From Lachnospiraceae bacterium (GTDB taxonomy: Bacteria > Bacillota_A > Clostridia > Lachnospirales > Lachnospiraceae): a stretch of 8,905 nucleotides of DNA. Within the stretch, counting starts at the first letter, position 1. Every line of letters starts with the position of its first letter. Shown here piece by piece: positions 2,993 through 4,739 of the stretch. The DNA lies in the NCBI GenBank assembly GCA_021770615.1, contig JAETQR010000080.1:1-8905 (forward strand). The letters are read 5' to 3'. The translations under genes were made by a program, and so were the position numbers. The notes below the pieces were generated by a model. The model saw only the letters and a list, made by a program, of their open reading frames with translations, had not been told where the DNA came from and ran no database searches.

Positions 2993-3024
2993 AAAAAATC
3001 CCCATCAAAAAATGACGGGGATTT
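2993..3024 (-). terminator. Leaky terminator between antitoxin RNA and toxin gene
   Basis: On the minus strand a 12-bp stem (AAATCCCCGTCA with TGATGGGGATTT, one G-T pair, 5-base loop) runs into six T. It lies directly between the repeat array and the toxin ribosome site. In type III systems such a terminator lets most transcripts stop as antitoxin RNA and a minority read through into the toxin, which sets their ratio. Confidence 0.88.
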
Positions 3025-3026
3025 AT

Positions 3027-3178
3027 GAACGAACTATATTACTTATATCCCACCTATATAGCAAGTGGCAAGCATTTACATACCGAATCATTTATACCCC
3101 ACACCATCGGCAAGTGGCAAAATTACCTGCTATGTTTCTTTTACCCCGTCGCATAGCCAACGGCAAACATTTACCTTT
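3027..3178 (-). ncRNA. Type III antitoxin RNA: three tandem pseudoknot repeats
   Basis: Three diverged repeats with periods of 46 and 49 bases start on the minus strand at 3163, 3117 and 3068, each with TTGCC. Each can form an H-type pseudoknot. Stem 1 is CCGTTG/CGACGG (3158-3163 with 3146-3151), CCAC/GTGG (3114-3117 with 3099-3102) and CCACTT/AGGTGG (3063-3068 with 3050-3055). Stem 2 is GCTATG/CATAGC (3152-3157 with 3129-3134), TGCCGA/TCGGTA (3107-3112 with 3081-3086) and GCTATAT/ATATAGT (3056-3062 with 3033-3039). Bases differ between repeats while pairing is kept. The stem order (S1, S2, S1', S2') is that of known type III antitoxins, which wrap around the toxin. A partial repeat tail (GGTAAATG) lies at the 5' end. 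Confidence 0.82.
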
Positions 3179-3184
3179 ATCCAT

Positions 3185-3212
3185 AGTATAGCAGAACTGC
3201 AAGAAATTGCAA
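3185..3212 (-). promoter_or_regulatory. Promoter of the antitoxin RNA-toxin transcript
   Basis: On the minus strand, -35 TTGCAA (3207-3212) and -10 TATACT (3185-3190) are separated by 16 bases. The start point would fall near 3178, just before the first repeat, so one promoter serves both antitoxin RNA and toxin. Confidence 0.7.
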
Positions 3213-3339: not shown

Positions 3340-3490
3340 TGTTCGTTACTCCTCAATCTTGTAGCTACCGATAACTCTCAAAATCTAATCTTCCCTACAA
3401 CCATTCTATATTAAAATCATTGTACAACGAAATTCCCGTTAATTTCTGCCTATTATATATCACTCATAAATATCATGAATCTCACTGCCC
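3340..3490 (-). pseudogene. Decayed fragment related to the 153-residue gene at 3609-4070
   Basis: On the minus strand the sequence encodes SEIHDIYE, a stop, YI, further disruption with a frameshift, then NDFNIEWL-stop-GRLDFESYR-stop-LQD-stop. This matches SKIHDIYERYI and NDFNITWLLEELDYENYRKLEDY of the intact neighbour (about residues 68-112). At DNA level both share a block around ATTAAAATCATTGT and ATAAATRTCATGAAT. Several in-frame stops and a frameshift show that it no longer encodes a protein. Weaker similarity may extend to about 3300 and 3500. The rest of 3213-3608 shows nothing I can support as a gene. Confidence 0.75.
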
Positions 3491-3608: not shown

Positions 3609-4070
3609 TTATCCCCTGGTTTTATCAGTATTTTCTACCTTCTCCTCTGTTATACATTCATGAAACAAAGACCATGCATATTTAAATCCAAGTCTGAATA
3701 AAAGTTCATCATTTCTGGAACAATAACACAAAATATAATCTTCTAACTTCCGATAATTCTCATAATCCAATTCTTCCAGCAACCATGTTATATTAAAATC
3801 ATTGTGCATCAAGGTTTCATTAAATTCCCAACTATTTATATACCGCTCATAAATGTCATGAATTTTACTATTCGTTTCATCTAATCCCATTAAATATGCT
3901 TCTTGTTCGGCATCCCGCTTCCCAATTTTAAGCAAAAACTCACTTTTATCAGACATTTCTATCCCAAACAACCATTTGTTCTCATGTAACTGTTCTACTT
4001 CTGCGATAGGCAGACCTGTCTTTCTCATGCTTTTTAACAGCATGGAAACAAAACTTTCAATATCCATCAT
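3609..4070 (-). CDS. Uncharacterised 153-residue protein divergent from a small XRE regulator
   Basis: I do not recognise the family. The protein is soluble, acidic and probably mostly helical. The middle carries KIHDIYERYINSWEF (69-83) and HNDFNITWLLEELDYENY (89-106). The C-terminal part contains the hydrophobic-aromatic segment DELLFRLGFKYAWSLFHECI (121-140), loosely like the F-x-x-GF-x-x-A helix of small Firmicute helical proteins. No catalytic motif, signal peptide or membrane segment is seen. The ATG at 4070 (or the next codon) follows AGAGAGGAAAA, a moderate ribosome site. The gene is divergent from the XRE gene at 4183 with a shared dyad operator between them. A decayed relative lies just downstream, so this family was duplicated locally. 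Confidence 0.7.
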   Translation of the reverse strand: MMDIESFVSMLLKSMRKTGLPIAEVEQLHENKWLFGIEMSDKSEFLLKIGKRDAEQEAYLMGLDETNSKIHDIYERYINSWEFNETLMHNDFNITWLLEELDYENYRKLEDYILCYCSRNDELLFRLGFKYAWSLFHECITEEKVENTDKTRG

Positions 4071-4182: not shown

Positions 4183-4395
4183 ATGATAGTGTATGACAGA
4201 TTGTGGAAAACTATGGAAAAAAAGGGGATTTCACAATATTCACTTATTCACGACTACAACATAAATGAATCACAGCTAGACCGTTTTAGAAAAAACAGCG
4301 TCATAAAAACAGTCACGATCGACCGTTTATGCAAAATCCTGGATTGTAACGTGGAAGATATTTGCCAATATGTAAAAGATGAACCCAAAGAGTAA
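4183..4395 (+). CDS. Small XRE/Cro-type helix-turn-helix regulator, copy 1
   Basis: A 70-residue protein that is essentially one helix-turn-helix domain. Its parts are YDRLWKTMEKKGISQYSLI (helix 1-2), NINESQLDRFRKN (likely recognition helix, 26-38), then TVTIDRLCKILDCNVEDICQYV. This is the pattern of minimal Cro/CI-like repressors. The ATG has AAAGGGG 7 bases upstream. It is divergent from the 153-residue gene across a dyad operator and is followed by its own strong terminator. It is about 74 % identical (52 of 70 aligned residues, counted by eye) to the next gene, and they share a run of nearly 30 identical bases. The role is likely autorepressor or regulator of the divergent gene. Confidence 0.82.
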   Translation: MIVYDRLWKTMEKKGISQYSLIHDYNINESQLDRFRKNSVIKTVTIDRLCKILDCNVEDICQYVKDEPKE

Positions 4396-4523: not shown

Positions 4524-4739
4524 ATGATTGTATATGACCGTTTGTGGGAAACCATGAAGAAAAAGGGGATTTCACAATATTCACTTATTAAAGATTACCA
4601 TGTAAACGAAGCACAGCTTCACCGCCTGAGAAAAAATAAGGTGATAAAGACGATTACCCTTGACCGCCTTTGTGAAATACTGGATTGTGAAGTTGAGGAT
4701 ATTTGCCAGCACATCAAAGGCAATCCTGATGAAGCATAG
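4524..4739 (+). CDS. Small XRE/Cro-type helix-turn-helix regulator, copy 2
   Basis: A 71-residue paralogue of the gene at 4183. The scaffold (MIVYDRLW, KKGISQYSLI, RLCxILDCxVEDICQ) is kept. Several differences fall in the probable recognition helix (HVNEAQLHRLRKN against NINESQLDRFRKN), so the two may prefer different sites or partners. The ATG has AAAGGA 6 bases upstream. The operator, promoter and gene together repeat the preceding unit at a 341-bp distance, which indicates tandem duplication. No structural gene follows in the same direction. The next gene, tnpV, is convergent. Confidence 0.82.
   Translation: MIVYDRLWETMKKKGISQYSLIKDYHVNEAQLHRLRKNKVIKTITLDRLCEILDCEVEDICQHIKGNPDEA

Follow-up and report, generated by a model that had tools for sequence, protein, structure and literature searches.

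A CptIN toxin-antitoxin locus of a Lachnospiraceae bacterium with, most probably, three distinct pseudoknot units kept in position in one antitoxin precursor

A stretch of 8,905 nucleotides (nt) from a gut bacterium of the Lachnospiraceae (contig JAETQR010000080.1; in its whole length referred to here as the window) carries on its minus strand the layout of a type III toxin-antitoxin locus, and the promoter, repeats, terminator-like hairpin and toxin gene lie where a first-pass annotation, made from the letters, had placed them. The predicted promoter (3185-3212) is sigma-70-like, TTGCAA-16-TATACT with a TG before the -10 box, and precedes three antitoxin repeats, R1 (3127-3174), R2 (3080-3126) and R3 (3031-3079). 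The repeats are separated from the toxin gene, cptN (2497-2979, 160 amino acids), by a hairpin at 2996-3024 that is probably a leaky terminator, and a Shine-Dalgarno-like AAGGAG can be read off the sequence at 2985-2990. The promoter match alone is no proof, because the scan returned 5 promoter-like sites against 5.4 expected; of the 25 three-repeat loci, 22 fit a loose -35/-10 pattern ahead of R1, several with the -10 register shifted, and L036, L059 and L065 do not. A GC-rich repeated sequence replaces the promoter region in L036, whose array and toxin frame are whole. The hairpin, an inverted repeat of -18 kcal/mol (z -6.2), was not listed by a strict terminator scan of the window, probably because part of its U run pairs with the A run.

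The toxin scores 195.7 bits against the NF047359 equivalog, whose cut-off is 90, and matches the structure 4rmo with E 3.3e-27; these matches and the predicted model place it in the CptN family and inside the ToxN/AbiQ/CptN fold, on which the first-pass annotation had made its case depend. As to ToxIN and TenpIN, a search of NCBIfam at E 1e-3 matched only the CptIN family; the fold is common to ToxN at lower Z, and the ToxIN and AbiQ structures (2xd0, 4ato, 7d8o, 4glk) share 9-16% identity with the toxin model. Pfam gave no match for the toxin. Arg34, Ser55 and Ser56 are invariant in 23 aligned toxin rows and align with 4rmo as an active-site arginine and two serines, their equation with the published triad resting on the motif (PMC4627078). 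The locus is a CptIN type III toxin-antitoxin system, of a known and nameable family, and what sets it apart is a clade-wide variant of its antitoxin; the new antitoxin subtype suggested at first is fair as a variant inside CptIN and not as something outside that family. No CptN was found in 50,697 phage records, 72,556 plasmid records gave 5 matches, all below 60% identity, and viral contigs held 5 CptN loci, 4 of them near full length.

The array consists of three units of 47-49 nt. An H-type pseudoknot descriptor (stem S1 of 4 bp, stem S2 of 5 bp, bounded loops), written after the sequence had been inspected, finds 3 matches in the 261-nt region, as first proposed, while 300 dinucleotide shuffles of that region gave none in 237 cases, one in 58, two in 5 and never three. 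Descriptor and homologue alignment together place tandem pseudoknot-forming units directly upstream of the toxin gene and on its strand. S1 pairs as CCGTT(G)/(C)GACGG in R1 (3163-3159 with 3150-3146) and as CCAC(TT)/(AG)GTGG in R3 (3068-3065 with 3053-3050), and has 4 bp only in R2 (3117-3114 with 3102-3099); S2 pairs as GCTATG/CATAGC in R1 (3157-3152 with 3134-3129), (T)GCCGA/TCGGT(A) in R2 (3111-3107 with 3086-3082) and GCTATAT/ATATAGT in R3 (3062-3056 with 3039-3033). The stem sequences are those originally quoted, with S1 to be shortened to 4 bp in R2 and probably to 5 bp in R1, where a 1-nt loop L1 would follow, like in CptI of Eubacterium rectale (G13; PMC4627078), because a 6-bp S1 and a 6-bp S2 without a loop base are hardly possible. 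Tandem Repeats Finder at score 30 found no repeats in the array, visibility to that program being a detection step and not part of the CptIN definition, and the units are related more by structure than by sequence. No Rfam model matched in the window at gathering score; the 17 sub-threshold rows (rnk leader, rli38 and others) were rejected, the best of them overlying the terminator hairpin and R3.

The best 80 of 247 relatives found among genome contigs comprise 23 three-repeat loci like the window, 20 with two diverged repeats (clade B), 12 with two R2-type repeats, 19 two-repeat loci of Bacilli type and 6 that were not used (L033, L044 and L057 with too little upstream DNA, L069 with a partial toxin, L105 with the array not in view, and L084, too different). 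Each listed locus gave the expected number of units, save for one extra in L080, which was dropped. In samples of genomes that overlap one another, CptN matches came from 13 of 29 genomes in the genus sample (7 above the cut-off), from 67 of 397 (56) in the family sample, from 56 of 392 (44) in the order sample and from 7 of 398 (5) in the phylum sample. The three-repeat set of 25 loci, which includes the window and a second copy on contig C31 of its genome, holds 24 distinct arrays. Between these loci, units in the same position share an identity of 0.814 (R1 0.751, R2 0.861, R3 0.831) and units in different positions 0.536; identity within a locus is about the latter, 0.543, and therefore gives no sign of repeat homogenisation. 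The nearest neighbour of a unit shares its position for 71 of the 72 units, the lone miss being R1 of Oceanivirga miroungae (L072, Fusobacteriota, toxin 59%), a locus whose R2 (0.78) and R3 (0.84) match those of the window and whose R1 (0.55) does not. For 12 representatives below 90% toxin identity (54-90% pairwise) the same-position mean was 0.801 against 0.624 when positions were permuted, with 0 of 2000 permutations as high. Over the 24 arrays the 5' strand of S2 exists in 9 versions in R1, 2 in R2 and 4 in R3, which speaks for unequal constraint on the positions. From these comparisons of sequence, R1, R2 and R3 are a clade feature, three distinct pseudoknot lineages in fixed order and not copies of one another, restricted to the clade within our sample.

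In a tree of 72 toxins (L032, L055, L060, L071, L083 and L087 excluded by length; L002, L068, L069, L084, L086 and L105 excluded beforehand) the three-repeat loci do not form one clade, the label needing 3 changes, at least 2 of them forced by well-supported branches. The first repeat of clade B, compared with the use of 9 of its 20 loci, has an identity of 0.94 to R1 over columns 1-13 and of 0.79 to R2 over the remainder, and looks like an R1/R2 fusion; the second repeat in the same 9 loci is R3-like (0.78).

The first-pass annotation had read the changes of stem sequence among the three repeats as covariation. Strictly, differences within a single array do not amount to covariation, and the stems were examined across homologues instead. 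In R1, 91.7% of the cells are paired, 4 of 11 pairs changed on both sides and the score is 0.305 against 0.166 when shuffled (0/500 as high); in R3, 99.6% are paired, one pair shows a double-sided change and the score is 0.141 against 0.096 (0/500). The R2-type units taken over all clades (72 rows) are 97.7% paired, with 7 of 9 pairs changed on both sides and a score of 0.580 against 0.215 (0/500), structures slid along the alignment reaching at most 0.128. Relatedness is left uncorrected by the shuffles and partly corrected by the slid controls, and the exclusions made in alignment A5 (the length-changed second units of L073, L078 and L087 and both of L097, both units of L107, and near-duplicates) favour clean pairing. 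The covarying stems thus hold for R1, R3 and the wide R2 set and are not seen in R2 within its own clade.

Where the toxin frame is broken, pressure on the antitoxin should drop. All 49 loci whose frame is open have a complete S1 core, and 2 of the 7 with a broken frame show mispairs (every unit of L002 and one unit of L032; Fisher p 0.014), a comparison of small numbers among related, non-independent loci, in which the L002 allele recurs in two other genomes and errors in metagenome-assembled sequences could mimic broken frames. L002 is the second CptIN of the genome of the window (G000, contig C31, 1300-1700), with a full three-unit array, a toxin frame of 66 amino acids and an S1 mispair in every unit. 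Its truncated allele recurs in G013 (L020) and G043 (L024), each with 1 difference over the 144-nt array. Antitoxin-only protection by this copy was considered and rejected, all three S1 being mispaired and the same truncated allele recurrent; we read it as one decaying allele and not as a kept antitoxin, although a mispaired unit might still bind.

The degree of divergence, called unusual in the first-pass annotation, is borne out when 100 distinct arrays are clustered by their toxins at 60% identity. The median within-array identity is 0.61 (range 0.53-0.98) in the window cluster of 37 loci (19 three-unit, 18 two-unit), against 0.87 (minimum 0.46) in the other 63, all two-unit. From this comparison and that of adjacent pairing below, L142, L174, L180, L181, L186 and L167 (dubious first unit) were left out; L019, with the identity of 0.46, was retained and may be a false array. 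With the repeat-finder settings of PMC8860590, in which this step was used beside manual recognition, none of the 19 three-unit arrays and one of the 18 two-unit arrays in the window cluster are detected, as compared with 42 of 64 in other clusters; laxer settings detect 2 of 19, 2 of 18 and 49 of 64.

The nearest described system is CptIN of E. rectale (PDB 4RMO; PMC4627078), which is alike in toxin family and fold, in the order of repeats, hairpin and toxin, in an H-type pseudoknot with short L1 and long A-rich L2, and in the aligned RPH and Ser-Ser motifs. The window differs from it in the number and length of the repeats, three of 47-49 nt as against two of 45 nt, and in a within-array identity of about 54%, the median of the E. 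rectale-type cluster (19 loci) being 0.89. The E. rectale Tyr104, which contacts the adenine at the scissile site, aligns with His107 of the window toxin if the chain is numbered from 1. The presumed cut context reads TA in the window, where E. rectale has GA. CptIN loci with three repeats are already on record in Fusobacterium, with 40-41 nt and 2.9-3.1 repeats (Table 3, PMC6315513), presumably near-identical copies, to judge from the one repeat length given for each; a distant locus of this kind on a Fusobacterium plasmid (L189) has three near-identical repeats as read by eye. Antitoxin repeats of 34-36 nt are given for three ToxIN/AbiQ-type systems named in PMC5086642. In the literature on CptIN and type III antitoxins with non-identical repeats, of which subscription papers were thinly covered, position-specific repeats were not found.

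We consider it highly probable that the window holds a CptIN locus with three distinct, position-kept pseudoknot units in one precursor. A single promoter would produce a precursor with three pseudoknots, and the hairpin would let only part of the transcription through into cptN. The toxin, an endoribonuclease whose predicted fold is MazF-like, would cut this precursor near (G)TAA-like sites that precede each unit and follow R3; the released units would then keep it inactive in closed rings of protein and RNA. Processing and inhibition are expected, by homology, to resemble those of E. rectale CptIN, whose toxin cleaves the precursor RNA into individual 45-nt pseudoknots and is itself bound in a 2:2 ring (PMC4627078). 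One transcript would thereby yield three different antitoxin RNAs. If the supply of RNA were lost, the RNase would be freed, which would maintain the mobile element post-segregationally; abortive infection against phages may be a further role. The E. rectale CptIN stabilises a plasmid, and no effect was seen on more than 200 coliphages (PMC4627078).

Several observations weigh against the reading of three position-kept pseudoknots. Pseudoknot-free folding gave no unusual stability for any unit (z -0.7 to 0.0), R2 is almost invariant in its own clade and carries no covariation signal there, and 4 of the 20 rows of R1 count as unpaired in four S2 columns, their register being off by one. Shuffles reached two of the five covariation measures in R1 (29/500, 60/500), in R3 and in the wide R2 set (45/500, 500/500), the measures not clearly above shuffles in all three being the count of double-change pairs and the count of pair types. 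R1 of the window has an A at the position of the kink U30 in L2 of E. rectale CptI, whose deletion abolished rescue (PMC4627078), and it resembles R3 of L072 (0.64) more than R1 of L072 (0.55); in that most distant locus the descent of R1 is a matter of position and form only. The unit patterns were also written after inspection, and badly broken units could be overlooked.

Granting the three lineages, what keeps them apart can be explained in several ways. It is doubtful that they constitute a position-locked set of three RNAs that are not interchangeable and have separate jobs with one toxin; in such a set R2 and R3 might, for example, be sequence-specific partners in the ring and R1, evolving fast, might serve the first cut or the timing, so that each transcript would perhaps give an asymmetric 3:3 ring with one unit of each kind. 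We find it quite plausible, if still tentative, that an old duplication simply diverged and that the units are kept only as foldable, interchangeable pseudoknots. The stems of R1 vary with pairing retained, R1 of Oceanivirga is unrecognisable by identity, relatives in the same family have near-identical repeats (the median of 0.87 in other clusters) and, according to a figure legend of PMC4627078, one E. rectale repeat alone rescued fully; nevertheless, neutrality does not sit well with R2 and R3 keeping sequence besides pairing, as their few versions of the S2 5' strand indicate, nor with the missing homogenisation. Selection for divergence itself appears unlikely to us as the explanation, although identical repeats recombine and differing ones would guard the antitoxin against a slippage loss that frees the toxin. 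Identical runs between repeats of a locus reach 6-13 nt at most in the three-repeat set of 25, as compared with 39 in L070 and 16 in L075, and the fusion-like first repeat of clade B is what a deletion between repeats would leave, but other CptIN clusters retain identical or near-identical pairs, so that instability is not generally fatal.

It is very improbable that the repeats differ in order to stop the 3' strand of one S2 from pairing with the S2 5' strand of the next unit in a competing hairpin. Inspected by eye, neighbouring units of the window show no pairing of this kind and the non-adjacent R1 and R3 could form it, and in L075 (clade C, two R2-type repeats) the adjacent combination has -1.5 kcal/mol against -5.5 in reverse order. 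Promising in these few loci, avoidance failed as a family rule across 17 toxin clusters at 60% identity, where adjacent pairing was weaker in 2, stronger in 7 and tied in 8; the respective counts were 1, 4 and 1 at 50% and 6, 10 and 9 at 70%, in a comparison in which L090 carried a spurious third unit. Decay of the locus into a remnant is scarcely credible: decayed copies are indeed common, with a broken toxin frame beside 7 of the 57 arrays examined and a truncated copy on C31 of the same genome, but in the window the toxin frame is whole, S1 and S2 pair in all three units, and promoter-like, hairpin and Shine-Dalgarno-like sequences are present. A phage decoy was rejected. An exact R2 19-mer matched one viral contig, L112, inside open reading frames (ORFs) with no nearby CptN-like ORF noticed, and is taken as chance; the R3 and clade-B patterns gave no matches in viral contigs.

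In descriptions of type III antitoxins a single consensus unit is repeated, and screens seek tandem repeats. Here is a CptIN clade whose arrays are missed by a repeat-finder step and whose three-repeat members keep different pseudoknots in order, which poses the question whether antitoxin repeats are interchangeable or divide the labour. The natural compensatory variants could be used to map what CptN reads in the RNA.

The neighbours of the locus in the window, a tyrosine integrase, an excisionase-like gene (below the curated cut-off), a MobV-like relaxase and a NikA-like protein, are consistent with the integrative and mobilizable element in which the first-pass annotation had placed it. Upstream of the antitoxin promoter, 3355-3486 is a partial, degenerate copy of one portion of the ORF at 3609-4070 (74-85% identity), an ORF for which neither Pfam nor PADLOC gave a match, and the adjoining HTH_26 genes at 4183-4395 and 4524-4739 are 77.5% identical over 187 bases. 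An exact direct repeat of 115 bp inside the tyrosine integrase gene (G000, contig C46, 1-115 and 9004-9118) bounds about 9 kb that include the window, its copies lying at the right end of the window and just past window base 1. Beyond the repeat the integrase frame ends next to a serine recombinase gene; the repeat could reflect an element that is circular or in tandem, or a branch in the assembly.

A third CptIN of the genome (contig C60, locus L003, 1340-1962) is of E. rectale type, and its first repeat is identical to the 45-nt repeat that PMC4627078 gives in its primer table. The palindrome ACATGGTGCTAGCACCATGT or a close variant flanks it on both sides (1061-1080 and 1985-2004) and is also found, in several other genomes, near the E. 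rectale-type loci L129, L131, L133, L136 and L139, as if CptIN of this type had moved with the palindrome as a small cassette. Just downstream of cptN in the window, the segment 2340-2480 contains TTCGAACTCG and GAAGCAAAATAGAAGCAGC and recurs nearly unchanged in L007; L133, of E. rectale type, has a similar motif nearby, and the segment is possibly an attachment site.
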